64,000 bases of DNA from Bacteroidota bacterium. Its GTDB lineage: Bacteria > Bacteroidota > Bacteroidia > JABDFU01. Position numbers and translations under genes: made by a program. The stretch is taken from positions 1 through 64,000 of the forward strand of contig JACPDY010000093.1 in NCBI GenBank assembly GCA_016183775.1, in the 5' to 3' direction. Below are positions 4,871 through 39,323 of this stretch, piece after piece (position 1 is the first letter of the stretch; every line of letters starts with the position of its first letter). The notes beneath the pieces were generated by a model that saw only the letters and a list, made by a program, of their open reading frames with translations, was not told the origin of the DNA and did not search any database.

Positions 4871-4880
4871 AATTTATTTT

Positions 4881-4966: not shown

Positions 4967-4975
4967 CGTAACTTT

Positions 4976-11758: not shown

Positions 11759-11765
11759 TATAATG

Positions 11766-12104
11766 TTACCCCTCCCTCCACATTTTAGGAAAGTAAAAAA
11801 AAAGCCACCAACTGATAATAATAAGGCCAATAAAAAAGGCGGGGTAGCTGATCCAGCGCATTTTTAAGTTAAAAAACTCATCACACATCCAAAGCGAGTT
11901 CGCCAGGATCCAAAAAGTAATTGCAAGGTTAGGCAGGCAATTGGCTGCATTTAATCTTGTTTTATATACTATCATTAACGAAAGCGTAAGTGTAGGAAAG
12001 ATCATCGCGATACCCAGCGGTTTTATTTGTAATGCCCAGCAGGAATCTTTTACAAGCCAGAAAGGTATATGCAGGTTTTCATATATAAGCAGGTTTTTCC
12101 TCAT
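11766..12104 (-). CDS. Small integral membrane protein, 112 aa
   Basis: It has about three to four hydrophobic segments (IAMIFPTLTLSLMIVY, LAITFWILANSLWMC, YPAFFIGLIIISWWLFFYF) and a conserved-looking N-terminus rich in Trp and His. I do not recognise the family by name. The start codon overlaps the stop of the upstream gene (12101-12694) by four bases (ATGA), so the two are translationally coupled. The partner carries the UPF0316/DUF2179 domain, so both are probably inner-membrane proteins of one operon. Confidence 0.75.
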   Translation of the reverse strand: MRKNLLIYENLHIPFWLVKDSCWALQIKPLGIAMIFPTLTLSLMIVYKTRLNAANCLPNLAITFWILANSLWMCDEFFNLKMRWISYPAFFIGLIIISWWLFFYFPKMWREG

Positions 12105-12694: not shown

Positions 12695-12716
12695 GGTTGC
12701 AAAAGTAAATATTAAA

Positions 12717-14360
<1,644 letters not shown>

Positions 14361-18271: not shown

Positions 18272-18361
18272 TGCTTTCAACTTTATAAAAATACTTATAC
18301 CAGGTTTATAATACAATCTAATAATTATTTAAAATCGCTTTAGATATGATGTCTAAAATTG

Positions 18362-18411: not shown

Positions 18412-19923
18412 ATGAAAACATCATCGTCAGATCTGCATTCATTGGTACATTCTTTAACAACCCGTGAAAAATCATTTATTGTCACTAAATTAAGACATAA
18501 CAGGGACGATAGCTATAAGTTAAAGCTCTTTTCATTGGTCAATAAACAGAAGACATTTAATGAAAATAAGTTGTATGTTAAATTAAGGAGTGAATTGACA
18601 CCGAAAAAATTTATTGATGTTAAAAATCGCCTTAGTTACACTATTTTATCATTGCTTGAAAACTATCATGCTCAAGACAAAGTGAATTATATACTTCAGA
18701 GCAGCCTCAGGCAGGCCGAGATATTGCAATCAAAGGAGCTTTATAAGATGGCCGGTAAAATACTTCATAAAGCGCAGAAACTGGCTATGGAGCAGGAGAA
18801 ATTCGAATACCTTATGCTTATCAGGAGGATGATCGTGTTCGGTTATAGGATGAATCGTGACCTCGAAAAGCTGGAAGATCATATTCATAATAAGGAATAT
18901 AAAAGACAGGATGAGATCATCGAAAATATCCGGAACGAAGAGGAATACCGCAGGCTTATGATCAGAACTGAATTATTGCTTTCGAAGGGGCATTCAATTG
19001 TACATTATAGATCAACAAAAAGAGATCTCGAAACATTGGCTGCCTCCGGGTATTTGACCGATCCGGTCAATGCAAAAACCATTTTGGGAAAACTCTATTT
19101 CCACTATGTGCTTGCTTCAATAGCCACTTTGCAGGGAAAAGGGAAAAAAGCATTGGCGACGAGAATGGCCTGGCTGAACTATTTAAAAAATAAAGCGACG
19201 GGGTGGGAGGTCTTCAATAAAGAATATCTGACAACTTTGGCTAATATTTCGGCTTCAGGAATTGCTGGTAAGGGAATGGAGTTGTATAAAAGGGCGAATA
19301 AATTTTTTTTTGCAATTCCTTCAAAAAAGAGAGCCGGACTTGAAATGATCCAGATTCATCATCTCTCAAATATTATATCCAATGTCCAACCGATAGAAGC
19401 AGTTGAGTTATATAAGGATGCTATTTCAATTATTGAGAAAAAAATAGATCACAGTACACGAATATTATTTTATATTAATATGACTATGGTTTTTTGTCAG
19501 ATCAGCGATTTTCATTCCGCTATCAGGCTGTTGAACAAGATCATAAATTACAAAGGAATGGAACGAAAAAATGATGTACAGATACTGGCGAGAATCTTTT
19601 GTCTTATTTGTCATTATGAACTTGAGAATTATGATTTGTTGTTATCGTTACATAATTCCTTTTTCAGATGGATGATCCGGAACCATCCCCTGTTTAAAGT
19701 TGAAATTGAGATTATTTCAATGTTTAAAAAGATTCCTTTAAAGAGTGAAAGTAAAGAACAAAAAAAACAATTTTTTGTTGACATGCTGAATGTTCTAAAA
19801 AATCAAGCAAGCGGAAAGCCGGGACTTATTGGTAGTGACAAATTTTTTAATATTTGGCATGAAAGCAAAATCGAGGATCGTCCTTTCGCGGAAGTACTAA
19901 AGGAGAAAGCGAAAAATAGTTGA
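18412..19923 (+). CDS. Helical protein of a three-member paralogous family, 503 aa
   Basis: The protein has no signal peptide. It is Lys/Arg-rich and almost wholly alpha-helical, consistent with a TPR/SPL-type solenoid (AGKILHKAQKLAMEQEKFEYL; AIRLLNKIINYKGM). Two paralogues lie at 23152 and 37830. All three share an N-terminal motif of the form SL(S/T)..E+..F.., a conserved ..+LSYTILSLL.NYH-like segment at about 75-85, and a C-terminal motif W.ESKIE(D/N)RPFA(E/D)V. It is divergent from one CGCKEW surface protein and convergent with another. A regulatory or scaffold role is inferred only from this position. I do not recognise a named domain. Confidence 0.78.
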   Translation: MKTSSSDLHSLVHSLTTREKSFIVTKLRHNRDDSYKLKLFSLVNKQKTFNENKLYVKLRSELTPKKFIDVKNRLSYTILSLLENYHAQDKVNYILQSSLRQAEILQSKELYKMAGKILHKAQKLAMEQEKFEYLMLIRRMIVFGYRMNRDLEKLEDHIHNKEYKRQDEIIENIRNEEEYRRLMIRTELLLSKGHSIVHYRSTKRDLETLAASGYLTDPVNAKTILGKLYFHYVLASIATLQGKGKKALATRMAWLNYLKNKATGWEVFNKEYLTTLANISASGIAGKGMELYKRANKFFFAIPSKKRAGLEMIQIHHLSNIISNVQPIEAVELYKDAISIIEKKIDHSTRILFYINMTMVFCQISDFHSAIRLLNKIINYKGMERKNDVQILARIFCLICHYELENYDLLLSLHNSFFRWMIRNHPLFKVEIEIISMFKKIPLKSESKEQKKQFFVDMLNVLKNQASGKPGLIGSDKFFNIWHESKIEDRPFAEVLKEKAKNS

Positions 19924-23151: not shown

Positions 23152-24690
23152 ATGAAAAAGTCCAGTAATAATACGGATAAACTTTTTGAACTTATAAAAT
23201 CACTTTCAAAAACTGAAAAGAGATATTTTAAGTTGATGGTTTCGCCCCATAAAGGGGAAAAAAGTTATCTATTGCTTTTTAATACTATTAGTTTGCAAAA
23301 AAGGTATAATGAAGAAAAATTGAAAGCAGATTTATCCAGTAAAATTGCACCTGAAAGCATACGGATATATAAAAAATATTTGTACGACCTGATCATCAAG
23401 TCTTTGGATAGCTATCATGGTAAGTCTGCATGGCCATCCAAACAGTGTGCGGATATTTTAGGAGCAATAGAAATTTTATATCGAAGAAAATTGTATTCGC
23501 ATTGTAACGCTTTGCTTAAAAAAGCTGAGAAGCTGGCTTCTGATGCCGAGGATTATCCTTCTTTAATGAAAATTATGGACTGGAAAAGAATATTAATGCC
23601 ATACGAGCCTTTGAGAAATAATATTGAAAGCTATATGCGTCTTGAGAAAGTGCTGGAGAATCTGGCTTTGACTTATACGCTTTTTATCAAATATAATTTT
23701 CGACACATACAATTATACTTTTTATCACAAAAAAAATTCTTTCACAGGGGATCGGGAAAATCCCTGAGTAAGATAAAAGAAATAACATCCATGCTCCCAC
23801 CGCCGGGACAAATTGACAAAATGCCCGGTGGCTTACAGAGAGCCATTTTGGAATGTTATTCCATGTATTACCAATATACCCGGAACTGGAAGCAATTATA
23901 TATTGCACGAAAAAAATTGCTTGAAATTGAAAGAGAAAGGTATAAAGTGAAGATGATATCGCAAGATACGTTATCTAAAAGTTTGTATAATTTTCTCGTA
24001 TATGCTGTTTACATGAACTATTTTGGGGAGGATTTTGAAAATGCCCTGGAAGAGTATGCCCTTCTTATGGAAAACGATGAAAAGAAAAAGCACACAACAC
24101 TTATGTTTAAGTTGGCAAAATGCACATCTCTTGTTTTAACTGACGATGCAAAAGTGATACTAATAGAATACGAAAGGGTTGTCCGGGAATTACAGGAGCA
24201 AAAAGAATACGAAAACACAGGGGTATATGGTTTGTTTTTCAATATATATTTTATACTCGGGGATTATTCACAAGCTTTAATATGGGTTAATAAGCTGATG
24301 AATGAGTCGATGAAAGATTCCCGCATAGATCGCCTCGGTATGGGAAAATTGCTCCTGATTGTCGTCCATTACGAGAAACAGAATATGGACATGTTGGAAA
24401 GTCTTATCCGTTCTTCTGAAAGGTTCATGAAAAAGAAAGGAGTATTTTATGAATTCGAAAGGGTGTTTTTATCGTTTTTTAGGAGGGGTCTTTATATAAA
24501 AGGCCAAACAAAAGAGAACAAAGGGACGTTCATCGAGCTCAGGAAAAAACTACAGAAAATATTGACAAAAAGCAACGACAATTTTATTTTAGAGTATTTT
24601 GATTTTATTTCATGGTTGGAAAGTAAAATAGAGAACCGCCCCTTTGCAGATGTAGTGAAGGGGAAAAGCGAAAGGAGGGGTGGTTCTTAA
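23152..24690 (+). CDS. Helical protein of a three-member paralogous family, 512 aa
   Basis: This is a paralogue of the genes at 18412 and 37830. The N-terminus reads LIKSLSKTEKRYFKLMVSPH, followed by KYLYDLIIKSLDSYHG at about 80. The C-terminus reads WLESKIENRPFADVVKG. It is all-helical and basic, without a signal peptide or membrane helix, which suggests a cytoplasmic solenoid protein. The gene is divergent from the SBBP lipoprotein gene and convergent with the next SBBP gene, repeating the arrangement at 18412-19989, so the gene pair has been duplicated in tandem. The 208-bp upstream spacer is extremely AT-rich and shows no clear promoter consensus. Confidence 0.78.
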   Translation: MKKSSNNTDKLFELIKSLSKTEKRYFKLMVSPHKGEKSYLLLFNTISLQKRYNEEKLKADLSSKIAPESIRIYKKYLYDLIIKSLDSYHGKSAWPSKQCADILGAIEILYRRKLYSHCNALLKKAEKLASDAEDYPSLMKIMDWKRILMPYEPLRNNIESYMRLEKVLENLALTYTLFIKYNFRHIQLYFLSQKKFFHRGSGKSLSKIKEITSMLPPPGQIDKMPGGLQRAILECYSMYYQYTRNWKQLYIARKKLLEIERERYKVKMISQDTLSKSLYNFLVYAVYMNYFGEDFENALEEYALLMENDEKKKHTTLMFKLAKCTSLVLTDDAKVILIEYERVVRELQEQKEYENTGVYGLFFNIYFILGDYSQALIWVNKLMNESMKDSRIDRLGMGKLLLIVVHYEKQNMDMLESLIRSSERFMKKKGVFYEFERVFLSFFRRGLYIKGQTKENKGTFIELRKKLQKILTKSNDNFILEYFDFISWLESKIENRPFADVVKGKSERRGGS

Positions 24691-24753: not shown

Positions 24754-27498
24754 TCAGGGCACTACCAGATTAACATTCACACTACATCCGTTCTTATCTT
24801 TAATATTTATGTTGTAAGTCCCCGGGCAAAGTTGATTTTTATATCTATTGGTATATCCGTCGGGCCAGGAATAACTGTATGGGCCTGTGCCGCCTGTTGC
24901 AGTTACCATTATCCATTCCTTGCAACCGCAGCCTGTGCAATTGGTTGTTCCTTTTGTAAATTGGCCTGTTAAATTACATGCGGTACATTGAGTAGTAGTA
25001 ATATAATTGTTTATTGTAATACTATCTTTTTTGCAAATTGTTGTTACAACTAATTTAACATCGTGAGTGCCGACACCGGAAAATGTAACAGTAGGTTTTA
25101 CGGAATCCGAACTTGCCGGGTTACCACCAGCAAATGTCCATTGAAATTTATATCCTGTGGTATCACAGGAGTTGGTGACGGAAGGTGTGAAAATAACCGG
25201 GGCATTCGTACATAAATTGGTATTACTGGCAGTATAATCTAAGCCAAGTACCTTGGCTTCACAAAGATTAATACATAGTTTATCAATAAAAGCATCTGTA
25301 CTTCCGCTATATACTGTTTGAAAAGCACCGGCAGTTACCGGATACCCACCATTTGTATAACCGGTAATGTATAAATCATTTCCATATATGGCTATTGGAC
25401 CTGGTCCAAGTTCTATCTCGTCCTCTGTTGTACCACCTAAATATGTTATACATTTTTGCTTCCCGTTAGAATCATATTTTGCTATAAATTGATCCTCCAA
25501 TATTCCAGAAGGTTCTCCTCCACTATTTGTTTGGTAAGCACAGGTACTGATAGGGTAATTACCCACATCCTGATCCTCAAAATCTCCACAGGCATATATG
25601 TTGCCCTTTCCATCTATTGCACAGCCCATTATCCATTCTTTACTATTACCTCCCATGTACGTTCCCCATTGCCTTACTCCTGCATTATTAAATTTTACTA
25701 TAAAGGCATCAAGCGGGCCTCCTGCAAAAGCAATCTGTTGGGCACCAGCAGTAGCAATGTTAGTTGCGGAAGCTGTTGCTCCGGCTAAAATGCAATTGCC
25801 CGAAGCATCTACAGCTATGGCGGAGCCAAACTCAATTGCAGATCCTCCATAATACGTAGACCAAATGGGAAAACCAGTTGCGGGATTTAATTTGGCGGCA
25901 AAAGCATCTCCGCCTCCACCATAACCTGGCTGATGAGCAAGTAATATAGGGAAGTTTGCTTCAGCGTAACCACAAATAAAAATAACATTGCTATTATCAA
26001 CGGCAACCCCACAGATTTCCTCTTCGTTTGGGCTCCCATAATAAGTTGCCCATTGTCTTATCCCGACGCTGTTAAACTTAACAATATATCCATCATACAA
26101 AGCACCTGCAAAAGCAGCCTGGTATGGTGCCATTGTTGGAAAATTAGTAGAATTTGTATAACCTGTTATTATAATGCTGGATGTATTGTCGGCTACTATT
26201 GCATGTCCAACATCACTGCTGTTGCCCCCATAATAAGTAGACCAGGTAAGAAATCCGGCGGGAGTAAATTTTACAATAAATGCATCATCTTGTGCTCCTT
26301 TTGCCGATTGAAAATATGCCCCTCCTCCCGGGCCTAACAGGGGAAAATTAATGGAATAGGTCCAACCGGTCAAAATAATATTGTTGGCACCATCAGCGTC
26401 TACGCCTTTACCGCAGTCTCCGGCACTTCCTCCTAAATAAGTAGCATAACTAAGTACTCCTGCTGAAGTCATTTTTACAATAAATGCATCTGACGATCCT
26501 GCTAAAGCTATTTGAGAAGCACCAATGCTTATTGGAAAGTTTAGAGAATACGTTTGGCCACTAAAGATCACATTACCTAAATTATCGGTACAAACAGACA
26601 AACCTGCATCATAATTATTACCACCGTAATAACTTAGCCATGGGTCTATAATGAGGGGGTAAAAGGTATTCCATGTTCCAAGTTCAAAGTTCACCGTTGT
26701 GCCATGTAAAATGTACCGAGCTTCCACATCAATAATTTTTCCATTTATGTTTTGGTAAACTTTGGGTAGGGTTTCGGTAAATTCGTTTATGCCGGTTTTA
26801 ATTACCAAAGCCCCTTCATGGTTTATGCTTATGTGATCTGCTCCTTTCCAGCGAAGTTTGATTTGGTCGGGGTCGGCGTGGGGGTGTACGATGAGGTCGT
26901 ACTTGATGCCATTTTGTTTGTCTCCGTAATAAGCAATGTCAATACCCTCGTAAATATTTTTGTAGGTTACCTTGTTGTATTGTTTTACGTTTAATACGCC
27001 GTTGGGGCAATGGCCGTAGTAGTAGTTATTGTAGCCTTCCAGTTCCTCTTCGTTAATGGTTTGTATGTATTTGTTACAGCTTTCAAATTCCATGTCCACG
27101 CGGTGCAGCTTTATCCGTGCTTTGCGCATGAGTTCTTCTTTCAGCTCTTTTTCTTCCTGTTCCGTTATTTCTCCGGCTTTCTCTTTTTCCTCCACCTGTT
27201 CTTCTATTTCGTGCATCACTTGGTTCATGTTGCTTAGCACGTAGCTTAGGCCTGTTTTGCGAAGGTATATGTCGGCTCCGGGTGTTTCACTCTTATACAA
27301 TACCTCGGGGCAGGGTTTGCCGTTCCTATCGGCTATTTGTCCTTTGTTGAGGGTAAAGCTCATGCCGGAACCCCGAAGTGAGTGCGGGTTGGCTGTTGCC
27401 AGCGAAACAGCTTGTGGATTTTGCGCATGGTAATTGGGAACTCCAAAAGCAATTAAGATAGCGCTTGCACAAAAACGAATGAGGATTATTTTATTCAT
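24754..27498 (-). CDS. SBBP-repeat surface protein with PKD and CGCKEW C-terminal domain
   Basis: It has a signal peptide (IILIRFCASAILIAFGVPNYHAQ) and a DUF7948-like module (about 45-285) with a strongly charged helix (EEQVEEKEKAGEITEQEEK at about 95-115). SBBP repeats follow (about 290-710), then a PKD-like domain (about 735-835) and the shared tail (CTGCGCKEW ... QLCPG ... VNLVVP). It is closely related over its whole length to the 19989 gene, including the conserved YYYGHCPNGVLNVKQYNKVT block. It has an 83-bp stretch near its 3' end identical to the otherwise more distant 27529 gene. Predicted to be a surface-exposed propeller protein; ligand unknown. Confidence 0.88.
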   Translation of the reverse strand: MNKIILIRFCASAILIAFGVPNYHAQNPQAVSLATANPHSLRGSGMSFTLNKGQIADRNGKPCPEVLYKSETPGADIYLRKTGLSYVLSNMNQVMHEIEEQVEEKEKAGEITEQEEKELKEELMRKARIKLHRVDMEFESCNKYIQTINEEELEGYNNYYYGHCPNGVLNVKQYNKVTYKNIYEGIDIAYYGDKQNGIKYDLIVHPHADPDQIKLRWKGADHISINHEGALVIKTGINEFTETLPKVYQNINGKIIDVEARYILHGTTVNFELGTWNTFYPLIIDPWLSYYGGNNYDAGLSVCTDNLGNVIFSGQTYSLNFPISIGASQIALAGSSDAFIVKMTSAGVLSYATYLGGSAGDCGKGVDADGANNIILTGWTYSINFPLLGPGGGAYFQSAKGAQDDAFIVKFTPAGFLTWSTYYGGNSSDVGHAIVADNTSSIIITGYTNSTNFPTMAPYQAAFAGALYDGYIVKFNSVGIRQWATYYGSPNEEEICGVAVDNSNVIFICGYAEANFPILLAHQPGYGGGGDAFAAKLNPATGFPIWSTYYGGSAIEFGSAIAVDASGNCILAGATASATNIATAGAQQIAFAGGPLDAFIVKFNNAGVRQWGTYMGGNSKEWIMGCAIDGKGNIYACGDFEDQDVGNYPISTCAYQTNSGGEPSGILEDQFIAKYDSNGKQKCITYLGGTTEDEIELGPGPIAIYGNDLYITGYTNGGYPVTAGAFQTVYSGSTDAFIDKLCINLCEAKVLGLDYTASNTNLCTNAPVIFTPSVTNSCDTTGYKFQWTFAGGNPASSDSVKPTVTFSGVGTHDVKLVVTTICKKDSITINNYITTTQCTACNLTGQFTKGTTNCTGCGCKEWIMVTATGGTGPYSYSWPDGYTNRYKNQLCPGTYNINIKDKNGCSVNVNLVVP

Positions 27499-27528: not shown

Positions 27529-30267
27529 TCAAGGCGCCGAAAGATTAATATTTACACTGCATCCGTTTTTGTCAGTAACTTTTACATTGTACGCTCCCGG
27601 GCACAGCCCGTTCCTGTAACGTTTGTCATACCCGTCGGGCCAGGAATAACTGTATGGGCCTGTGCCGCCTGTTGCAGTTACCATTATCCATTCCTTGCAA
27701 CCGCAGCCTGTGCAGTTGGCGGTCCCTTTGGTAAATTGTCCGGTTAAAGTGCAGGTATTGCATGATGCCCCCGTAATAACAAACGTTGCTGTTTGTGTTT
27801 GATTGCAATTACTTGTTGCGGTAACAGTGTAGGTACCAGGACAAAGACCCGTTATAGTATTGCTATTATTCGTTGTATTTAATGTTGAACTGCCATTGCT
27901 CCACATATAACTAAAGGGTGCGCAGCCTACTGTTATAGTTACAGAAGCACTCCCTGTGCAACCGCAACCTGAATTTACTGAGTTGGGAGTAATAGCAAGA
28001 GGTAATTTATTAAATTTGGCGATATACAAATCTTCCATCTGCTGATTTTGATTGTTATCATAATAAGCCCCACCTGCCGGATTGGTAAAGGGGAAAGTAT
28101 TAGCAGTAGCTACTGATTCACCTGAAATGAAGAGCCTTCCACTATTATCCACTGCCAAGGGAGCGCGAAAATCTGATCCATTTCCGCCAAGATAGGTAGC
28201 CCAAAGCAATGCACCTGTGTTGGAAAAATTAGCAATAAAAATGTCGCTGGTACTTCCGTTATAAGTATTATCGTAATATCCCCCGTCGCAGGCTGGTTTG
28301 GTATTTATATTTGTAGATGTTGTTTCAAAACTCGCATATATGTTTCCGCAGGCGTCAATAGCCAAATTGTCAAATGTAATAGCGGGCAATATTCCTGGTG
28401 GTTCCTCTGCTCCACTACCTCCGTAATAAGTAGCCCATAGGCGATTGCCCACATTATCGAACTTTAGAATAAAAGCATCAGACGTTCCACTTAACGCTCC
28501 ATCAAAATAAGCACCTGCTACCGAGCCTGGAGTAGGGAAATTTCCTGACTTAGTTAGTCCCAGTATAAATACATTTCCGTTATTGTCAACAGCAATAGAA
28601 CGACCAGAATCATCCCCGCTGCCTCCATAATAGGTTGCCCAAAGAACGGTACCTGCCCCATCCAATTTTATAATTGCAGCATCTGAAAGTCCACCACCAA
28701 AGCTTGCCTGAAAATATCCCGGACAGGTGGAGCAAAGGTCTGGAAAAACCGGTGGAGAAAACATAAAAAAAATGCTTCCCGTTATAAATACATTTCCGGT
28801 TGCATCGGTTGCAATGGCTCTTGGGATTACATCACCAGTTTTGTGTGTCCAAAGTAAGACTCCTGTATTACTGAATTTTTCAACGCTGAGTAAGTTATTA
28901 TAAAATACCGATACAAACACATTCCCTGCTCCATCAGTAGCAACAGAATAGCCCTGTTCATTACTTCCGCTAAGTGCTGTTCCGTAGTATGTTGCCCATA
29001 GTCTAGTGCCGGCATTATTAAATTTCAAAATAAATGCATCTTGGGTTCCGCCTAAAGTGGCATCAAAATAACCTGGGCAAATGTTGCATACCGGAAAGTT
29101 ACCTGACTGAGTAAATCCTGTTATAAAAATATTTCCGATATTATCAGCAGCAATTGAATTGGCTGCATCGCTCCCATTCCCCCCATAATAGGTAGCCCAA
29201 AGGAGAACTCCTGTATTGCTAAATTTCAAAATAAAGGCATCGCTGGTTCCAAGCGCACCACCGCCAGATGTTCCTTGAAAAAAAGTTCCGGCATTGAGCA
29301 AAGGAATGCGAATAACTGCTGAAGCGGTGTATCCAACTATAAAAAGATTGCCTGCATTATCGGTAGTTATTGACATCGAACCTTCGTACCCAGCTTGACC
29401 AAAATCTCCATTGCCCCCATATAATGTAGCCCAAAATAATTGAGGATCTATAACTAATGTAGAGTTAGGATTGACAAATGAGGAATCTAAAAGAAATGAA
29501 ATAGTGGTTTGGTAATAGTTGTTATCAATGTGTCGTTGATCCATAATCTCAAAGTGGCTTGCTACTTCCTCACGAGTTTCTTTGATGTAGCTGTATGGCG
29601 CATTTTCAGTAAGTGTTCCAAGTTTGTTTTTTATTATAATACTGCCATCATTGTTAAGTTTTAATGGTTTTAAAGAAGAATAGACCAAGGCAATTTGTTT
29701 TGAATCAGCTCCCGGATGAACAATAAAATCGTATTTAAAGCCTTTTGTATCTGAATTATAAAGAACCCAATCTATTCCCGGATAAATTTCTTTGATGGTT
29801 ATTTTATCATACGTATGTACATCAGAAATCCCATCAGGGCAATGAGCATAAAAATATTGTGAAAAAGCAGTACTCGCCCCTTCTTTAATTATATTTTCCT
29901 TTTTAATGGATGCGCCTTTTAAAGCCATATCTATACGGTTCCATTCCGCTTTTGTGTTTTCTTTTTTTTGTTCATCTCCCTTCTCTTTTTCATGCTCTTC
30001 ATGTTCTATTTTCATGAACAGGTATGTTAAGCCTTTTTCCGTCACATACATATTCATTCCGGGAACAGAAGCGGTAAATAATACATACGGAACAGGTTGT
30101 CCATTGATGTCAGCCATTTGCCCTTTATTTTCAAGAAACCTGACAGGTTGTTCACGCATCCATTGTTGAGCATTAGTTTTTAAATTGGGATCGGTTCTTT
30201 TGCTGCCATAGACAATAGCTGCTGTTATCAAAAAAATAGCTAAGATGCTGATGCGCGTCCGTTTCAT
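27529..30267 (-). CDS. SBBP-repeat surface protein with SprB-like repeat and CGCKEW C-terminal domain
   Basis: It has a signal peptide (ISILAIFLITAAIVYGS) and a DUF7948-like N-terminal module (about 35-270: RFLENKGQMADINGQPVPY, YFYAHCPDGISDVHTYDKIT). About eight SBBP repeats follow (about 275-755, LWATYYGGNGSDAANSIA), then one SprB-like unit lacking the usual turn (CGCTGSASVTITVGCAPFSY), and the shared tail (CTGCGCKEW ... GLCPG ... INLSAP). The stop is 30 bp before the start of the 24754 gene on the same strand, so these two could be one transcript. It has no 500-residue partner gene of its own. Confidence 0.88.
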   Translation of the reverse strand: MKRTRISILAIFLITAAIVYGSKRTDPNLKTNAQQWMREQPVRFLENKGQMADINGQPVPYVLFTASVPGMNMYVTEKGLTYLFMKIEHEEHEKEKGDEQKKENTKAEWNRIDMALKGASIKKENIIKEGASTAFSQYFYAHCPDGISDVHTYDKITIKEIYPGIDWVLYNSDTKGFKYDFIVHPGADSKQIALVYSSLKPLKLNNDGSIIIKNKLGTLTENAPYSYIKETREEVASHFEIMDQRHIDNNYYQTTISFLLDSSFVNPNSTLVIDPQLFWATLYGGNGDFGQAGYEGSMSITTDNAGNLFIVGYTASAVIRIPLLNAGTFFQGTSGGGALGTSDAFILKFSNTGVLLWATYYGGNGSDAANSIAADNIGNIFITGFTQSGNFPVCNICPGYFDATLGGTQDAFILKFNNAGTRLWATYYGTALSGSNEQGYSVATDGAGNVFVSVFYNNLLSVEKFSNTGVLLWTHKTGDVIPRAIATDATGNVFITGSIFFMFSPPVFPDLCSTCPGYFQASFGGGLSDAAIIKLDGAGTVLWATYYGGSGDDSGRSIAVDNNGNVFILGLTKSGNFPTPGSVAGAYFDGALSGTSDAFILKFDNVGNRLWATYYGGSGAEEPPGILPAITFDNLAIDACGNIYASFETTSTNINTKPACDGGYYDNTYNGSTSDIFIANFSNTGALLWATYLGGNGSDFRAPLAVDNSGRLFISGESVATANTFPFTNPAGGAYYDNNQNQQMEDLYIAKFNKLPLAITPNSVNSGCGCTGSASVTITVGCAPFSYMWSNGSSTLNTTNNSNTITGLCPGTYTVTATSNCNQTQTATFVITGASCNTCTLTGQFTKGTANCTGCGCKEWIMVTATGGTGPYSYSWPDGYDKRYRNGLCPGAYNVKVTDKNGCSVNINLSAP

Positions 30268-30339: not shown

Positions 30340-31047
30340 TTATTCGAACATTACTTTTTTACTTAGCAATTTATTGTCGCCTGCTGCCCCTATCATATAT
30401 ACACCTTTTGGTAGTGTGGTACTGCTCCCTATAGCAACCTTTACACTTCCTTTGTTGTCAGTTAATACTATTTTCGAGTAATATTCCCTACCTAATACAT
30501 CATACAAAACTACCAAGACGGAGGAGTCTGCTTGCAGCCCAGACAATGTAAGTGAAAAGTTCTCGCCGGCCAATATATTTATCGGATTTGGATAAACTGA
30601 AAAGTTGACGATACTATTATTTTCAAAATCTATTGGTATTACATGTGAATAGGAGTACTTTCCGTCAAAATCGGTTTGTTTAAGTCTGTAATAAGAGGTT
30701 TCGGGTAAAAGGTTCTCGTCTACTCCTGTATAATCTCTAATCGTGCTGCTATTTCCGGCCGCTTTTACATTTAGTACTTCCTTAAAATTAATTCCATCAC
30801 TACATTTTTCGATAGTAAAATAATCGTTATTAATTTCTGTCGCGGTTGCCCATGTTAAATACACACTGCCTTGCTTACATATAGCTTCAAACCTAAGTAA
30901 TTCTATGGGTAAAGGCACCTCATTACCAACAGAGCCAACACAACTGAACGAAAACCCACCATCGTTTCCTACATTGTATTGAGCATAAGCTACTGTTCGG
31001 ACAACGAGTAACAAAAGAACTGAATATATTGATTTGAGTTTTTTCAT
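30340..31047 (-). CDS. Secreted protein with T9SS type A sorting domain, 235 aa
   Basis: The signal peptide (IYSVLLLLVVRTVAYAQ) is followed by a short fibronectin-like segment (LRFEAICKQGSVYLTWATAT, YYRLKQTDFDGKYSYS). This is the usual linker before a C-terminal type A sorting domain (FSVYPNPINILAGENFSLTL ... VLYDVLGREYYSK ... LPKGVYMIGA ... KKVMFE). It should be secreted by the T9SS. With so little sequence beyond the export signals, a structural or anchoring role is possible. It is 39 bp downstream of the SUMF1-fold gene and probably co-transcribed with it. Confidence 0.85.
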   Translation of the reverse strand: MKKLKSIYSVLLLLVVRTVAYAQYNVGNDGGFSFSCVGSVGNEVPLPIELLRFEAICKQGSVYLTWATATEINNDYFTIEKCSDGINFKEVLNVKAAGNSSTIRDYTGVDENLLPETSYYRLKQTDFDGKYSYSHVIPIDFENNSIVNFSVYPNPINILAGENFSLTLSGLQADSSVLVVLYDVLGREYYSKIVLTDNKGSVKVAIGSSTTLPKGVYMIGAAGDNKLLSKKVMFE

Positions 31048-31086
31048 CTGGCTTGTATTTTAAATGTCTCTTTTGAAAAACCCCGG

Positions 31087-32676
31087 CTAAGGCACCACAC
31101 GAATACCACGACCACCGTGACGGACACTACGCACGCTGTAGGACTCAGCTGCGTTACGGCGGTCGGACACACGCAGGTTAAGTGCAGAGGTGTACCAAGC
31201 ACCGCCACGAAAGCCAGTGCCTATGGCATCGGTTACTGGCCAGTTGTTCGCATCGGCATCGCCACCACTGGTTAGTACACCATTGCCATGAGTGCCTGTA
31301 AAGGCTCTGCCTGTGGCGTTACCCACTGATACAGAGCGATCCCAAAGGTTGCCAGTTAACTCCATGATACCGTAATAACTTGCCCCTACGCCTTCTCGTG
31401 TATTTACACCCTGCCCAAAATTGCCTACCCGCATGGGTCCTTGTATGCTGGCATGATTTCCATAAGCACCATTAGCACCTGCATTGCTGGCAGTTTCGTT
31501 GTTTGCTCCGCTATTGCTGATACCGGTTGCCTGTGTTATGCTGGTGGAGCCCCATGCATATTCATCGGCAAGAGCAGCCTGCGTGCCACGGCATGCTTTT
31601 TCGTATTCCAGCTCGGTCATGGGGCGTAGCGCTGCCCAATCAAGGTAAGCGGAAAGGTCTGCCCAATTTAATAAGTTGCAGGCAATATTTTGTCCGTCAA
31701 CGCTTTCGTTAGCTGTTCCATCACCATCTAAATCGCAATAAAAAGTTATCGGGTCGGAGGTGTGTATGGTTGCATCACAACGTATTCCATTTCGATACAA
31801 AAGAGTTGAAGTATTCGACATGACATACCTGTTTGTAACAGAAGTAATTCCAGTAGCAAGATCCGTATTAGTCCTGGCATTCTGTTGATCCCTGGTTAAC
31901 TTGTTTAAAAATGCTACATATTGATCCTGGGAAATTTCATACTTCATGCAATAAAATGCGTTATATCCTTTTGGGAAGGCTGCCGGAAGGCTTTGGCTTG
32001 TGACATCGTTAAAATCATCGGGTACCCCCATCGCGAAAGCATTATTATTCCCCAAAGTGCCGGCACCACCACCGCCAAGGGTTAAAGCGCCTTCGGAGGT
32101 TATTTGAAAGACTGTTCCTGCTGTAGCGTTTTCAAAGTGCCCTTCTCTATTACTACTTGTACCATCACCGGCATCAAAACTACCCTGGGGCACATATACC
32201 ATTTCTATGGCAAATACGCATACTTCCACACTATCGCCATCAGCCAGCCCGTCTACACCATAGTTCCAACGCAGCTTAACTCCGGTATAATTTACGCTAC
32301 CATTTACCATATCGGCATCGCGGTGTATAAACACACCATAAGCGCCACCGGCGCTGTTGTCGTTTCTGCTGGCTATATTGCTATTCGCGGGTTCGGTGTG
32401 TCCATCACCACTGCCAGTACCGTCCACCCAATTGAGTGTAGCGTGGTTCCATGTGGTTTGCGTTTTTAAACGGTATTTTATAAATACCCAGGCAGCATCC
32501 CAATTTGATGGTCCTGCACTGGTTCGCCAGGAGTTATTCCAACTAATGTCGCAATTTACGAGGGTGTAATCCGATGTGGCGTTTCGCCCGTTGAGAACTA
32601 TATTGCTCACTGTAACTCCATTGCCAAATACGCACAATGGCATGAATGCCAACGATAGTAAAATGCTTCTTTTCAT
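31087..32676 (-). CDS. Secreted SUMF1/FGE-fold protein, probably non-catalytic
   Basis: The start chosen at 32676 gives the signal peptide MKRSILLSLAFMPLCVFG; an upstream in-frame ATG adds 17 residues. About residues 19-150 form a beta-rich domain of unknown type (TVSNIVLNGRNATSDYTLVN). From about 155 the formylglycine-generating-enzyme (SUMF1) fold follows: VYVPQGSFDAGDG, MKYEISQDQYVAFLN, RPMTELEYEKACRG, YYGIMELTGNLWDR, GFRGGAWYTSALNLRVSDRR, GGRGIRVV. The paired catalytic cysteines of true FGE are not evident, so it is likely a binding protein of the C-type-lectin-like fold. The 3' quarter of the gene is notably GC-rich. The following gene has a T9SS tail, while this one has none. Confidence 0.85.
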   Translation of the reverse strand: MKRSILLSLAFMPLCVFGNGVTVSNIVLNGRNATSDYTLVNCDISWNNSWRTSAGPSNWDAAWVFIKYRLKTQTTWNHATLNWVDGTGSGDGHTEPANSNIASRNDNSAGGAYGVFIHRDADMVNGSVNYTGVKLRWNYGVDGLADGDSVEVCVFAIEMVYVPQGSFDAGDGTSSNREGHFENATAGTVFQITSEGALTLGGGGAGTLGNNNAFAMGVPDDFNDVTSQSLPAAFPKGYNAFYCMKYEISQDQYVAFLNKLTRDQQNARTNTDLATGITSVTNRYVMSNTSTLLYRNGIRCDATIHTSDPITFYCDLDGDGTANESVDGQNIACNLLNWADLSAYLDWAALRPMTELEYEKACRGTQAALADEYAWGSTSITQATGISNSGANNETASNAGANGAYGNHASIQGPMRVGNFGQGVNTREGVGASYYGIMELTGNLWDRSVSVGNATGRAFTGTHGNGVLTSGGDADANNWPVTDAIGTGFRGGAWYTSALNLRVSDRRNAAESYSVRSVRHGGRGIRVVP

Positions 32677-32730
32677 GGACAGGCATTGGACTACGCGCCT
32701 AAATATTTTCAACAGACTACTGATCATCAG

Positions 32731-34800
32731 TCAGGGAGATGTTACAGTTATGTTTATGTTACAATTATTTTTATCCTTAATGTTTATCGTGTATGCTCCC
32801 GGACACAGCTTATTTTTGTACCTGTTTGCGTATCCATCCGGCCATAGGTAAGTGTATGGGCTTGTGCCGCCTGTGGCATTTACCAGTATCCATTCCTTGC
32901 ATCCGCATTCCGTACAATTGGCGGTGCCCTTGGTGAATAGGCCGACTAATGGAGAAGGGGAAGATATTGTTGCAGCAGATGTTGCTGTACAGCCATTCGC
33001 ATCAGTTACTGTTACAATATAAGATCCCGCTATAAGGCCTGTTGCTGTTATGCCGGTTTGTCCTGTAGCAGGCCATAAATAGGTATAAGGACTTGTGCCT
33101 CCGTTGGCTGCAACTGTTGCCGATCCATTGCTGCCTGAATCACAACTTACATTCGTTTGCGTTGAAATACCTGCGGTAAGAGTACAGCCGCAATTGTTGA
33201 TAGTAACAATTTGTGTTATAGAATCTTTACTTGCCGTACAATTAGTAACTACTACTTTTACAGAATATGATCCCGCGGAGCTGTATGTATGTGACGGGTT
33301 GATAAGGGTGGATATGTTATTGATACCTGAACCCGGATCTCCAAAATCCCATGAATAAGATTTTATTTCATTACAACCTGGAACGCTGGCATCCGTGAAT
33401 GAAACATTTGCAGGTGCACAGCTATTGTTAGGGTTGAATGTATATGATGCTGTAGGTTTATCGGGAACATACCTCCACATATTATTAAGCCTTGCAGCGG
33501 GTGATCCTCCTGAAAAAAACCATAATTCATTTGTATTGGGTCTTCTAAAGGGAAGATTCCCTAGTCCGGCTTTGGGCATATTAGTTGGCGCTGAGACACC
33601 CTTTGCACCATAAACTCCGGCTTGATTTGGAAGTTTAGAACCACTTACCCAAGTCCAATTCCCTGTTGCATGGCTGTATCTCCATAAGTCATTTCGGAGA
33701 TTGCTACCATCAGAGACTGATCCTCCCCATAACCAAAAATTTCCACAATCATCTTCCCACCGGCCACGATTTTCATATACTGCTGGAGGATTATTTGCAG
33801 GGGCATCTGCACAAAGCGTTCCATATGTTCCGTTTGGATTACCCGGACCATTTGTACCTTTCATCCAGGTCCATTCGTTTGTAAGCGGATCATATTTCCA
33901 TAAATCATCCAATGTTGAAATATTGTTCTTTCCTCCAAACAACCAGAAATTACCAACCAGATCCTTCCAACTGGCATATACAAACCTGGATCCGGGAACA
34001 TTGGCAGAAGCGGATATACCCATTGTGCCATAAACACCAGTCTGGTTGCTAAGATTACTTCCACTCATCCATGTCCATTGACTACTAACCGGGTCAAATT
34101 TCCATAAGTCGTTCAAAAGACCCGTTGCGCCACTTCCATCATAGCCCTGTCCTCCAAACATCCATATGTTTCCTTGGGCATCAGCCCACATTGCATCAGT
34201 TTCTGCTCTGCCACCTGGGTTGTTTGTTGGGGATGGAATTCCTTTCGTTCCATATATTCCAGATTGATTTGATAAGGTGCTACCTGCCATCCAGGTCCAC
34301 TCGTTTGTTAAGGGATCATATTTCCATAAATCATTCGTGAATCCTCCGTTGTATATTCCTCCAAACAACCAAAATTTTCCTTGTAAATCAACACAGGTGG
34401 CTGAGGCAAATCCTCTTCGACTGGGAGTATTTGCAATATTCGGAATACCTAATACGCCGTAAACCCCAGCTGCAGGTACTCCTGGACCTCCTTTCATCCA
34501 GGTCCATTCATTTGTGACAGGATTAAATTTCCATAGATCAGTACTATATAGGGTGGCATTTGTAACAGATCCACCAAAATGCCAAAAATTACCCTGCAAG
34601 TCCACCCATTCTCCGCCCCCTTCATATCTTCCGGCTGGCTTATTTGCCGGGGAGGCTACACCTTGTATTCCGAAAACAGCTGTCGGGTTTATTATATTAT
34701 CACCGGCCATCCATGTCCATTCATTATACTGTGCAATACAACTTGCAGATAGAAAACAGGAAACGAAGAGCAAGAGCAGTGGCAGGCAGAGAACTTGCAT
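32731..34800 (-). CDS. Kelch-repeat surface protein with PKD, SprB and CGCKEW C-terminal domain
   Basis: The start at 34800 gives the signal peptide MQVLCLPLLLLFVSCFLSAS; a longer frame starting at 34920 would put 40 charged residues before it. About six Kelch repeats follow (about 25-415), each with NEWTWM.G, GVYG..G and LW.FDP..N blocks, forming a beta-propeller. Next come a PKD domain (about 430-510, SYSWDFGDPGSGINNISTL), an SprB repeat (about 520-600) and the shared terminal domain (CTECGCKEW ... LCPG ... VTSP). It shows that the terminal domain is attached to different propeller types. It shares a 77-bp identical block with the SBBP gene at 19989. Confidence 0.88.
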   Translation of the reverse strand: MQVLCLPLLLLFVSCFLSASCIAQYNEWTWMAGDNIINPTAVFGIQGVASPANKPAGRYEGGGEWVDLQGNFWHFGGSVTNATLYSTDLWKFNPVTNEWTWMKGGPGVPAAGVYGVLGIPNIANTPSRRGFASATCVDLQGKFWLFGGIYNGGFTNDLWKYDPLTNEWTWMAGSTLSNQSGIYGTKGIPSPTNNPGGRAETDAMWADAQGNIWMFGGQGYDGSGATGLLNDLWKFDPVSSQWTWMSGSNLSNQTGVYGTMGISASANVPGSRFVYASWKDLVGNFWLFGGKNNISTLDDLWKYDPLTNEWTWMKGTNGPGNPNGTYGTLCADAPANNPPAVYENRGRWEDDCGNFWLWGGSVSDGSNLRNDLWRYSHATGNWTWVSGSKLPNQAGVYGAKGVSAPTNMPKAGLGNLPFRRPNTNELWFFSGGSPAARLNNMWRYVPDKPTASYTFNPNNSCAPANVSFTDASVPGCNEIKSYSWDFGDPGSGINNISTLINPSHTYSSAGSYSVKVVVTNCTASKDSITQIVTINNCGCTLTAGISTQTNVSCDSGSNGSATVAANGGTSPYTYLWPATGQTGITATGLIAGSYIVTVTDANGCTATSAATISSPSPLVGLFTKGTANCTECGCKEWILVNATGGTSPYTYLWPDGYANRYKNKLCPGAYTINIKDKNNCNINITVTSP

Positions 34801-34916
34801 TTTATGTTCCTGGCTCTTTGTGTAAATTGTACATGCTCGTTTCAAATTGAAAGAAATAATTGTCAAGTTACAAGAAAATTTTCTATCAAAAATTTGGCAG
34901 ACATAATTTCGTTTTT

Positions 34917-35120
34917 TCATTTGTATCCGATGCGTATGATAAAATCTTTTGTTTTTGTTTTCGCGGATTTTGATAATGATGGGAAGTCGAAATCCGTGTT
35001 ATCGATGCCTACCCGTTTCTTGATCCATTTGCTGTTGCCTCCGATGTCGAGCTTTTCCAGGAAATCATTGCTGATAATATTTTCCGGGTAAAATGTTCCT
35101 ATTCCGTGCAGGTATAACAT
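34917..35120 (-). pseudogene. Truncated ketoacyl-ACP synthase III (FabH-like) fragment
   Basis: The first 39 residues (MLYLHGIGTFYPENIIS, DFLEKLDIGGNSKWI, KKRVGI) match the N-terminus of 3-oxoacyl-ACP synthase III family proteins, which use the same G.G.Y.PEN.ISN..L pattern. The remaining 28 residues (DNTDFDFPSLSKSAKTKTKDF...) do not follow the family, and the frame stops after 67 residues instead of about 330-350. The catalytic Cys, His and Asn regions are missing. It is best read as the remnant of a larger gene cut by a deletion. It lies just downstream of the E1-methyltransferase gene on the same strand. Confidence 0.6.
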
Positions 35121-35160
35121 AGGTTATTTTTTTAAATGGTTACTAAGTTATTGTTTGCAT

Positions 35161-36843
35161 TTATAGCAACACTTTTCGTGCAGTAAATTCAAAACAATTC
35201 CCACTTATTTTTTCAAAGATTAATTTAAAACCTGCGTTACTGATTATTTCTTTTACCTCTGCAACCTGGTAAGGTCGATGAAGAATTCCTTTTTTCATTC
35301 CCCAGGAATTGATTCGATTGGAAATTTGATCCCATATGCTTTGGGCATGAGGGTATAGTAGGACATTTCCGGCCAAAGTTCCATTGGGCTTCAATACCCG
35401 GTGGAGCTCTTTCATGCCAGCCTCTATGGCTGGAAGGCAGTGAATGGCATTGGCGATATTCGCTGTATCAAAAGACTCACTGGAATAAGGCAATCTGGAA
35501 ATGTCAGCCCGGAGCAATTCGACGGACTTTTCGTTCTGAAATCTTTTTCGAGCTCCGACCAGCATTCGATCAGCATAATCGAAACCGAAAATTTGCGAGG
35601 GCTTCATTTTTCTCCACCGTCGCCATTTCAATATCAGATCGAGTAAAGTTCCAGTTCCTATAGCCGCCTCTAAATGTTTGTCACCCATATTTTTAGAAAA
35701 CAGACGAACCTGTGCAAGCAGAGTACTTCGATAAGAAAAGGTCAAAATCAAAAAACCGCGAAGATCGTACCACCAGGGTTCGGATGAATAAGCCTTATCG
35801 ATTTTATTTATTTCAAAATCATTTTGAACGCAGGCAACTGGCTTGTTTATACTTAGTGTGTTCGAGTTAATCTGAGTGTTTTTTTCAACTGTTAGTTTAG
35901 CCATTTGTTTAATTTTTATTTTATATACTGCTACTTTTAGTTTTTGTATGGGATTTCTATTGCCCAATGGCATATATCCTGTAATGAATTTTTTTAACCA
36001 TAAGTCGTATTGAAAATAATGAGGCGCTGATTTCACTTTATTTGGTTGAAGTAGTATTCGTATTACTTCAGTTGCGGCAGCAGCAGTAGATAAATGGCAG
36101 CTAAGGCCTAATGATGGCCCTTTTCGCGCATCCACGCTAAAACGACTCATATCCAAATAGCGTAAATGTGTTAGCCTGGGACTAAGGCCTATACCAAATT
36201 GCAAAACCATATCTTTTTCAGACATGGAGTCATGAATATTAAAGTATTTGTCGAAACTCATTGTGTCTGGAGCAAACACAAGCATAGCAGTACTGTATCC
36301 CATAGGACCAGCCGTGATCACATATATTTTCTTTTCTTTTGCTTTATTAAAAAGCATTCTCCTGATTTTCATTTCAAAGAAGTCCAGGCTGTCAACAACC
36401 ACATCAACACCTTCTAAAAAAGCGTCAATGTTATCGGAGTTAATGCCATTTTCAAAGACTTGCAGGTTAAGATAGGGGTTTATATCCATAGCTTCCCGAG
36501 CCATGGCAAACACTTTGGATCGGTTCAGATTAGTTCTTTTAGCTCCATATTGCCTGTTGATGTTTCCAATTTCAAATTTATCGAAATCCGCAATGTGAAA
36601 ATTGCTAATGCCTAAACGGACTAAATTAACAAGATGTAAACCGCCTACTCCACCCATTCCCGGTATGCCAACTTTGCTGCCCCTTAAAAATGCTTGTTCC
36701 GATAAGCTTAATAAACCAAGGTTTCTGGAGAAAGCTTCTTTATAGTAGAATTCTTCGCCTGAAATTTCTGTGTTGACACTTTCAATATCGAAGGTGTGAA
36801 TTACTGCTTTTGGGCACTTTGGTTCTTTGGTTAATGTTTTCAT
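35161..36843 (-). CDS. E1/ThiF-like adenylyltransferase fused to class I SAM-dependent methyltransferase
   Basis: Residues about 40-285 form an E1-like (ThiF/MoeB/UBA) adenylation domain. It has a nucleotide-binding GMGGVGG loop (62-68), ADFDKFEIGNINRQ (85-98) with the ATP-contacting Asp, Asn and Arg, and YVITAGPMGYST (184-195). The zinc-binding CxxC pairs of MoeB/ThiF are absent. After a linker of about 100 residues, residues about 390-555 form a class I methyltransferase: motif I LEAAIGTGTLLDL, acidic loop GFDYADRML, RADISRLPYSSESFD and HRVLKPNGTL. The E1 half should activate a carboxylate as acyl-adenylate, and the other half should transfer a methyl group. The substrate is unknown. The acyltransferase at 37017 lies upstream on the same strand. 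Confidence 0.85.
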   Translation of the reverse strand: MKTLTKEPKCPKAVIHTFDIESVNTEISGEEFYYKEAFSRNLGLLSLSEQAFLRGSKVGIPGMGGVGGLHLVNLVRLGISNFHIADFDKFEIGNINRQYGAKRTNLNRSKVFAMAREAMDINPYLNLQVFENGINSDNIDAFLEGVDVVVDSLDFFEMKIRRMLFNKAKEKKIYVITAGPMGYSTAMLVFAPDTMSFDKYFNIHDSMSEKDMVLQFGIGLSPRLTHLRYLDMSRFSVDARKGPSLGLSCHLSTAAAATEVIRILLQPNKVKSAPHYFQYDLWLKKFITGYMPLGNRNPIQKLKVAVYKIKIKQMAKLTVEKNTQINSNTLSINKPVACVQNDFEINKIDKAYSSEPWWYDLRGFLILTFSYRSTLLAQVRLFSKNMGDKHLEAAIGTGTLLDLILKWRRWRKMKPSQIFGFDYADRMLVGARKRFQNEKSVELLRADISRLPYSSESFDTANIANAIHCLPAIEAGMKELHRVLKPNGTLAGNVLLYPHAQSIWDQISNRINSWGMKKGILHRPYQVAEVKEIISNAGFKLIFEKISGNCFEFTARKVLL

Positions 36844-37016
36844 AGTAATTAAGTTTAAAGTGTACTTTTAGAAAGCTTTGTTTCCTGAATAATAGCCCGG
36901 TAAACTTTTATAATCCTTTTGATTGGCGTAAGTATCAGAAATCAACATATAAATTGCGAACCTCTTGACAATACAGCATTTCTGTAAATATTTGCGAAAA
37001 ACTACCAGGGCAATTG

Positions 37017-37631
37017 TTAACAATAGTATCCTTTTATAGCAAATCGTTGTGCCATTTTTTTAACCTCCAACATCATTGGGGCAACGTAAGTGCCAACATG
37101 CTCATTGTATTTTGTTTCACCTACTAAGATCGCCCCTAAACGTTCTAATGTTGGCTGCAATATATAATTGGCAGGAAATAACGCATAATCTACCCGATTA
37201 GCACTTCCTATTTTAATTGCTTCTTTTATTAAGGAATATAGAAGTTGTACACTACAATCTTGCTTTTTAATGGCTAACATACTCACACTCGCAAATTTGC
37301 CTTTTAGTTTGGAGCGCAATTTTTTATATTCTTCATGATAATGATCGCAGGGGAATTCCTGTTCCCGATTTTCAATTATGGTCACTCGTATTGTCCCTAT
37401 GCAGTTTTCACTATTACATACCAGTAAGTTCAGAGTGCCATTTTGCGTATCGAACTTGTCGTTTAACTTTTCATCCGAAAAGGCAGCTTTGTTAAAATAT
37501 TTATTGTCCTCTACATATACTTTATAACGTAATTTATATACCTCATTTAATTGCTCAACAGATATCGCTTCTTGCACTATATAAGTAAGTCTTTTCGGAT
37601 TCCTTTCTATCGTTGTAGTTTCTGTTTGCAT
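37017..37631 (-). CDS. FeeM/LuxI-like GNAT acyltransferase
   Basis: These 204 residues match the layout of N-acyl amino acid synthases and autoinducer synthases of the GNAT fold (Acetyltransf_5 / LuxI-like). VYKLRYKVYVEDNKYF (about 31-46) is the R-x-x-V-Y entry. DKFDTQNGTLNLLVCN carries the acidic residue after the first strands, IGTIRVTI is the GTxR strand, and FASVSMLAIKK is the acyl-donor strand. Enzymes of this type take an acyl group from acyl-ACP or acyl-CoA and attach it to an amino acid or amine. Next to an E1-like adenylyltransferase it suggests production of an acylated small molecule. It is divergent from the regulator-like gene at 37830. Confidence 0.75.
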   Translation of the reverse strand: MQTETTTIERNPKRLTYIVQEAISVEQLNEVYKLRYKVYVEDNKYFNKAAFSDEKLNDKFDTQNGTLNLLVCNSENCIGTIRVTIIENREQEFPCDHYHEEYKKLRSKLKGKFASVSMLAIKKQDCSVQLLYSLIKEAIKIGSANRVDYALFPANYILQPTLERLGAILVGETKYNEHVGTYVAPMMLEVKKMAQRFAIKGYYC

Positions 37632-37829: not shown

Positions 37830-39323
37830 TTGAAAATCGATCTCTTTAAATTAATAAAATCACTCAGCAAGGGCGAAAGAAAAACCTTTAATCTTTTTGC
37901 TAACTATTATTCTGATGGTAAAAAAAATTACCTGCGCCTGTTTGAAATAATAGATTCACAGAAAGAATATGACGAAGACTTTATTAAACAAAAGTTAAAA
38001 GATGAGAAAATTCTTACCTCACTTCCAAAAATCAAAAAGTATTTACTGGAACTTATTTTAAAATCTCTGCGGTTTTATTATTCGGGGAAAACCATTGAAG
38101 GAAAAATAAGAGAGCATCAGGCCAATGTTGAGATATGCAATACCAAAGGATTGATGAGAATGAGAGATAAAGTACTGGAAAGGGCAGAGCGTATTGCAAG
38201 AGTAAATGAAAAACACGAAATTTTACTGGAGTTGTTGAATAAAAAATTTAGCTACAAATCTGATCAACAACGTACAGATATACTTATTGAACAGGAACAA
38301 ATAACTGCAAAAATAATAGCGGTCAGAAAATATAAGCATCTTTCAGAAAAAATTGACGAACTGAAAAAAAGGGGGCTAATAAGAGATGCAAGTATGAAGG
38401 AAGAATGGGATAAAATATTTCGAGATCCCATTTTGAGCCAAGCCCACGAACCATCAGGGTATGAAGAAAGTTTGTATTACCACAATATGTGGGGAATGTA
38501 CTATGAACAAACGAATGATATTGCAAAAGAACTTTATCATTCGGAATCATTGGTAAAAAGGATGGAATCACGACCTGATTTGCTTATTCAGGATAAACAA
38601 AAATATATAATTATAGTCACTAATTTGGGAAGTGCTAGAGCCAAAAACAAAGAATTGCTGAAAGCAAATGAAACGTTGGAGAAGCTTATACAAATACAGG
38701 AGTGGGGACTAAGCGCAATAGAAACACACACACTTTCAAATTGTATTGCTATGACTTTTAGCACTTTGTTGGGAAGTTTTTCAAGAGCGAAGAGTTTTGA
38801 TGCAGGATTACAGTTGGCAAAAAAGGCAGAAATTTTTGTAAAGATGAAAAATATTAATATGCTTTTCAGGTCAATCTTGTATATAAATTTAGCGAGCATT
38901 TATATTCATTCAGGCCATTATAATTCTGCTCGTATTTGGAATACCAATTTGTTAAATGAATTAAACCAGAATTTCAGGGAAGGTTTGTACGCCCATGCGA
39001 AAATAATTAGTCTTATCATTCATTTTGAATTGGAAAGCGATCAACTGTTGCCATATTTAATACGTTCCACCTATCGCTACCTGTATAAGAGAAAAATGCT
39101 GTACAAAACCGAAGAGGCAATACTGCGATTTATCAGAAATAAATTACCAAAAGCAAATTCGCGAAAAGAATTAATTGAATTTTTTAAAGACTTTAAAACA
39201 GAATTGGAGGAAATTACCAAAGATGAATATGAAGCAAAGGTTTTAGAATATTTCGATTACATACGCTGGCTTGAACGTAAAATTGGCAACAGACCGGTTG
39301 CCGGAATAGCAGGGTTGGTATAA
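37830..39323 (+). CDS. Helical protein of a three-member paralogous family, 497 aa
   Basis: Third paralogue of the 18412 and 23152 genes. It has N-terminal LIKSLSKGERKTFNLFANYY, KYLLELILKSLRFYYSG at about 75-90 and C-terminal IRWLERKIGNRPVAGI. The start is TTG at 37830, directly before the conserved KIDLFKLIKSLSKGE; no in-frame ATG lies near. It is helical, basic and without a signal. Unlike the other two, it is divergent from an acyltransferase gene and not from a surface-protein gene. That suggests the family accompanies different target genes, as a regulator might, though no HTH motif is evident. Confidence 0.75.
   Translation: MKIDLFKLIKSLSKGERKTFNLFANYYSDGKKNYLRLFEIIDSQKEYDEDFIKQKLKDEKILTSLPKIKKYLLELILKSLRFYYSGKTIEGKIREHQANVEICNTKGLMRMRDKVLERAERIARVNEKHEILLELLNKKFSYKSDQQRTDILIEQEQITAKIIAVRKYKHLSEKIDELKKRGLIRDASMKEEWDKIFRDPILSQAHEPSGYEESLYYHNMWGMYYEQTNDIAKELYHSESLVKRMESRPDLLIQDKQKYIIIVTNLGSARAKNKELLKANETLEKLIQIQEWGLSAIETHTLSNCIAMTFSTLLGSFSRAKSFDAGLQLAKKAEIFVKMKNINMLFRSILYINLASIYIHSGHYNSARIWNTNLLNELNQNFREGLYAHAKIISLIIHFELESDQLLPYLIRSTYRYLYKRKMLYKTEEAILRFIRNKLPKANSRKELIEFFKDFKTELEEITKDEYEAKVLEYFDYIRWLERKIGNRPVAGIAGLV

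Follow-up and report, generated by a model that had tools for sequence, protein, structure and literature searches.

A ThiF-methyltransferase fusion beside a FeeM-like acyltransferase in a Bacteroidota genome looks like an undescribed variant of the acyl-oxazolone pathways

The window we analyzed, a 64,000-nucleotide stretch of contig JACPDY010000093.1 from a Bacteroidota bacterium, carries between 34917 and 37631 three features that the first-pass annotation had placed together on one strand, and all three are there, on the minus strand. The central one (35161-36843) is an intact gene with a single open frame of 560 amino acids in which, as had been read from the sequence, an E1-like adenylyltransferase is fused to a SAM methyltransferase. 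The ThiF/E1-like adenylyltransferase (cyclase) domain occupies amino acids 39-285 (35989-36729) and matches PF00899 with an E value of 1.7e-42 and 145.7 bits (cut-off 28.1). An interdomain linker (35818-35904), which as read from the sequence begins at an internal methionine, Met314, leads to a class I SAM methyltransferase domain at amino acids 343-560 (35164-35817), of which residues 392-491 match Methyltransf_11 (PF08241; E 1.2e-15). A FeeM/LuxI-fold N-acyltransferase gene (37017-37631, minus strand, 204 amino acids) lies 173 bp upstream of the fusion gene, and a truncated KASIII (FabH-like) stub lies at 34917-35120.

As the first-pass annotation had argued, the ThiF domain falls outside the molybdenum cofactor/thiamin type. 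It passed the NCBIfam model PRK08223 (367 bits, cut-off 266), with PRK14851 (390 bits) and PRK14852 as the next best models, whereas MoeB, ThiF and the other sulfur-carrier models scored 57-94 bits on the fusion, far below their cut-offs of 152-377. The five cysteines (residues 10, 249, 338, 469 and 550) form no CxxC pair anywhere in the fusion protein, and no ThiS/MoaD-like sulfur carrier or ubiquitin-like gene was found among the scanned neighbors, the absence of which had also been claimed correctly. In an alignment with 12 relatives, G62, G64-G65-V66-G67, D86, D88, N94, N96, R97, K110, D151 and D154 are invariant or nearly so, giving the motifs G62xGGVG67, D86xD88 and N94xN96-R97 followed by K110, D151 and D154; these are the positions that serve ATP use and adenylation across the E1 superfamily. 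They are common to a FeeM-ThiF-nitroreductase fusion described below and most also occur in a TrzS-type protein, with D154 likely the equivalent of TrzS Asp217 when compared through a differently numbered plasmid homolog. A structure predicted for the ThiF core has the ThiF/MoeB fold and matches ThiF, MoeB and AclA at Z scores of about 23, three proteins that are inseparable here because the ranking rests on fold; the comparison lists contained E1/ThiF-type chains only and were ranked on the ThiF part of the fusion. The nearest solved folds include ThiF, MoeB, PaaA, MccB and AclA of Tenacibaculum, the last being the top match both by fold and by sequence. In the model of the entire fusion the ThiF core is good and the methyltransferase domain and linker are weak, so that the domain interface is unreadable.

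The methyltransferase domain belongs to a family with the signature WWYDxRGF / HLEAAIGTGT / NAIHC / INxWGMKKGILHRPY. Its best named match is UbiE, at 56.8 bits against a cut-off of 216 and 56 bits against one of 158, and it shares the class I fold of the UbiE/MenG C-methyltransferases but has distinct signature motifs. Stand-alone homologs are 43-62% identical to it in Bdellovibrionota and 48% in a prophage, and one scan of genome contigs gave a single stand-alone methyltransferase. These homologs start at about amino acids 327-348 of the fusion, and Met314 possibly marks where a methyltransferase gene of its own once began; together these suggest that the fusion may be recent. At the thresholds used, two partly overlapping samples of 395 Bacteroidota genomes gave no relative of the fusion, and no such fusion turned up in 143 Bdellovibrionia or the plasmids searched; it was found in its own genome only, and horizontal gain is likely.

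The acyltransferase had been assigned to the N-acyl amino acid/autoinducer synthase fold, an assignment borne out by its match to FeeM PF21926 (E 2.3e-17, 63.7 bits, above the Pfam gathering cut-off of 27). To the PEP-CTERM/exosortase-associated model TIGR03694, a type described as N-acyl amino acid synthases (PMC9762135), it scored 52 bits, below the cut-off of 112, and we predict that it N-acylates an amino acid. It is distant both from FeeM of known function and from the prophage acyltransferase discussed below (42% over 36 amino acids, E 3e-6); among the other genomes of the class sample, distant relatives were present in one only, and an AlphaFold model built with three sequences was uninformative (pLDDT 35). 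Within its own genome there is a 71% identical paralog (contig C2, 61768-62364), which adjoins genes for a WbuX-like amidotransferase, an acyl-CoA ligase and a thioester reductase. The pair has a dN of 0.17 and a dS of 1.26 (dN/dS about 0.14), which points to purifying selection on at least the acyltransferase gene. A third FeeM-like gene of the genome (contig C84, 1-5930) lies with genes for an SDR reductase, KASII, KASIII, FabZ, ACP and a possible 4'-phosphopantetheinyl transferase, a group that is a small dedicated fatty-acid synthesis set; the first ~240 bases of that contig look foreign and may be an assembly chimera. A TrzS-type ThiF-oxidase is encoded separately, on contig C44.

The KASIII feature was noted correctly as a fragment, but it has no place as a working part of a pathway, and we rejected it as a pathway enzyme. 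Its 67 codons match NCBIfam FabH over amino acids 4-44 (E 4e-5) and are 55% identical to residues 1-59 of an intact KASIII, where homology stops; nothing matching the remaining ~270 residues was found anywhere in the window, and an unrelated Kelch-repeat gene follows. Elsewhere in the genome the stub matched one gene only, an intact KASIII carried by a different contig (57% identity over 59 amino acids). Stubs of 58-67 codons, of acyl-CoA ligase and KASIII, lie directly before secreted FGE/T9SS or Kelch genes both on C2 (11372-15601 of the locus examined there, L013) and in the window (30340-35120). On C2 the 58-codon ligase stub is joined in frame to an FGE-domain protein and is followed by an intact ligase copy with which it shares 95-96% DNA identity over 174-195 bp, an arrangement that suggests the secreted-protein genes may have been inserted by recombination.

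Large secreted proteins are encoded in the window at 45-1865, 14576-18316, 19989-22943, 24754-27498, 27529-30267 and 32731-34920 and also on C2 (L013 and L014). They share a conserved, partly SprB-like C-terminal segment of ~65 amino acids, QFTKGTAxCxGCGCKEWIxVxATGGTxPYxYxWPDG...RYKNxLCPGxYxxxIKDKNGC, which may serve as a dispersed domain for sorting or anchoring. Paralogs of ~500 amino acids with weak TPR matches (window 18412-19923, 23152-24690 and 37830-39323; L013 4115-5671 and 17574-19130) lie divergently upstream of both FeeM-like loci as well as of these genes for secreted proteins, and are possibly a regulator family.

Do the three parts recur together elsewhere? The strongest evidence that they do is a prophage contig with P2-like tail genes, IMGVR_UViG_2600255192_000003, in which separate genes for ThiF (2741-3622), an acyltransferase (3658-4407) and a methyltransferase (4429-5091) follow one another on the same strand with gaps of 35 and 21 bp. 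The ThiF protein scores 398 bits against PRK08223, the acyltransferase is of the exosortase-associated type (TIGR03694, 183 bits, above the cut-off of 112), the methyltransferase is of the same family as that of the window (48% identical), and the three-part cassette contains no nitroreductase-type oxidase. It adjoins tail-fiber genes and may serve lysogenic conversion as the source of a small acylated metabolite; Fels-2 matches this contig closely in the tail-fiber part only, and E. coli genomes lack the cassette.

In Bdellovibrionota, a ThiF or FeeM gene is nearby at seven of 13 loci of the methyltransferase family against 0.23 expected by chance, the latter a rough Poisson estimate from ThiF and FeeM gene counts per genome that ignores shared ancestry and assumes a single ThiF gene in each of G1022, G918 and G972, three genomes that did not belong to the first sample. 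The arrangements are varied: ThiF then methyltransferase, 1 bp apart (L076); FeeM, a FAD_binding_4 oxidase, ThiF and methyltransferase (L077); an O-methyltransferase overlapping ThiF, then a regulator and the methyltransferase (L072); FeeM 95 bp from the methyltransferase with ThiF 3 kb off (L100); and FeeM near the methyltransferase (L098, L103 and L069). At a further locus, L038, FeeM and ThiF flank a different methyltransferase. Roughly half of the Bdellovibrionota loci lack both ThiF and FeeM in their vicinity, and several of these adjoin a DUF4423-type HTH regulator, so the methyltransferase family may have other jobs and the link is not universal. Plasmid pDVUL01 of Nitratidesulfovibrio vulgaris encodes FeeM, ThiF and nitroreductase domains in one 989-amino-acid protein (11170-14139 of locus L011) within an XrtA/PEP-CTERM polysaccharide region, possibly the whole oxazolone pathway in one chain. 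The neighborhood check proposed with the first-pass annotation thus came out in favor of an association: the parts co-occur in Bdellovibrionota and the prophage, and FeeM and ThiF are fused in Nitratidesulfovibrio. Separately, G395 and other Bdellovibrionota each carry as many as nine FeeM-domain genes, of which several are fused to the c-di-GMP-binding PilZ domain and lie beside ThiF genes; this abundance suggests that the group may make a wide range of N-acyl metabolites linked to c-di-GMP.

What might such a gene pair make? The pathway type is a known one, so that the proposal of a wholly new acyl-conjugate pathway was too strong, although an undescribed variant of it stands. Papers of 2023-2025 describe three acyl-oxazolone makers, OxzAB, TyzABC and TrzAS, in which the substrate of the N-acyltransferase is Tyr, Phe or Trp, a ThiF-like protein uses ATP to close the oxazolone, and a nitroreductase-superfamily flavin oxidase, ThiF-fused and acting after ring closure in the case of TrzS, desaturates it (PMC10404671, PMC12856293). 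Two nitroreductase domains searched against the window gave no match at E values up to 1, and the methyltransferase occupies the oxidase's place in the locus. The order suggested earlier, N-acylation, adenylation and then methylation, was broadly right but missed that ThiF in the known pathways closes the oxazolone ring.

The sequences establish the genes, their families, the conserved catalytic residues and the recurrence of the three-part set, and the family placement of the window enzymes is well supported; the substrates, ring closure in the fusion protein, methylation site, product and role put forward here are inferences. On balance, we think it probable that the two genes provide a three-activity branch of the acyl-oxazolone/N-acyl amino acid pathways: N-acylation, ring closure and methylation. 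The FeeM-like enzyme would move a fatty acyl group onto the amine of an amino acid. The ThiF domain, with ATP, would then adenylate the carboxylate of the N-acyl amino acid, and attack of the amide oxygen on the adenylate would give a 5(4H)-oxazolone, the reaction known from TyzB and TrzS. Finally, the fused methyltransferase, in place of the flavin oxidase of OxzB/TrzS, would methylate the short-lived product on its enolate, at C4 or the ring oxygen, or else on the side chain. The first two activities are suggested by homology to characterized enzymes and the third by the architecture of the fusion. An oxazolone has an acidic proton at C4, and on chemical reasoning its enolate would therefore be a reasonable methyl acceptor, which an acyl-adenylate is not in any obvious way. 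Oxazolones are also unstable (PMC12856293) and, since their enolate could be methylated, fusing the methyltransferase to ThiF would help. That methylation falls on the oxazolone ring itself is nevertheless only a tentative suggestion. Equally speculative is the fuller idea that the pair is an oxazolone methylase, in which ring closure would acidify the alpha carbon and the methyltransferase would trap the enolate to give alpha-methyl (quaternary) N-acyl amino acids or 5-methoxyoxazoles, the pair having spread by horizontal transfer, prophages included; we found no report of such a lipid or signal class in the literature searched. Counting against the scheme are the occurrence of the fusion in a single genome, the distance of its acyltransferase partner from the prophage enzyme and from FeeM of known function, the methyltransferase loci that lack both ThiF and FeeM, the stieleriacine and thalassotalic acid producers, which have ThiF but in which no oxazolone was seen (PMC12479983), and the TrzS-type ThiF-oxidase on another contig, which could act in trans.

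The same oxidase lends something to a second reading, rather unlikely in our view, in which the methyltransferase targets the side chain of the amino acid (ring C- or O-methylation), ThiF merely aids a desaturation that an oxidase from another part of the genome carries out, and the product is an open-chain, methylated N-acyl amino acid of the stieleriacine type. The Stieleria clusters combine NAS, ThiF, nitroreductase and a methyltransferase that adjoins ThiF and is UbiE-like in S. neptunia (PMC12479983). UbiE is also the best named score of the window methyltransferase, though far below the cut-off; however, an oxidase is absent both beside the fusion and in the three-part prophage cassette. 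We give still less credence to carrier chemistry, in which the ThiF domain would activate a ubiquitin-like protein or peptide (as an E1 or an MccB/AclA-type enzyme) and the methyltransferase would modify the product: several of the nearest folds (ThiF, MoeB, PaaA, MccB and AclA) act on proteins or peptides, and PADLOC gave weak E1-E2 matches, to E1 only, but no ubiquitin-like, E2, JAB or precursor peptide gene was identified among the scanned neighbors (short open reading frames covered in part), the CxxC zinc pairs are missing, and the recurrent partner is an N-acyltransferase. Just as improbable is a non-functional remnant of a larger, decaying cluster, which the broken KASIII gene and the rearranged paralogous FeeM locus on C2, with its ligase stub before an intact copy, would fit, but which sits poorly with two intact open frames, the family-conserved residues kept in the fusion and the low dN/dS of the FeeM paralogs.

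The acyl-oxazolones form a young class of molecules. If the branch of N-acylation, ring closure and methylation that we favor is correct, then the recurrent exchange of an oxidase for a methyltransferase, seen in Bacteroidota, Bdellovibrionota and a prophage, would imply a new class of product. A testable function would also come within reach for the PRK08223-type ThiF proteins, whose annotation is merely hypothetical, and for the unnamed methyltransferase family, and the window offers a compact gene pair for testing it.

Three comparisons place the locus among known systems. The clusters for stieleriacines, thalassotalic acid and kyonggic acid (NasY, ThiF, nitroreductase, methyltransferase) pair an N-acyl amino acid synthase with ThiF as the window does, but in Stieleria the methyltransferase gene is adjacent to ThiF whereas in the window it is fused to it and no nitroreductase is present. 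The PRK14852-type protein of pDVUL01 holds in one chain FeeM and ThiF parts homologous to those of the window (ThiF 43.8% identical), but it ends in a nitroreductase domain where the window fusion ends in a methyltransferase. We found no description of a ThiF-methyltransferase fusion in the open-access literature. OxzAB of Pseudoalteromonas rubra, TyzABC, and TrzAS of Mycobacterium tuberculosis have, like the window, a LuxI/FeeM-fold N-acyltransferase beside a ThiF-like adenylating cyclase, and their cyclase too is often fused to the follow-on enzyme, which is a nitroreductase-superfamily flavin oxidase in those systems and a SAM methyltransferase here. To judge from their sequences, the window genes look like a real and undescribed variant of that pathway type.
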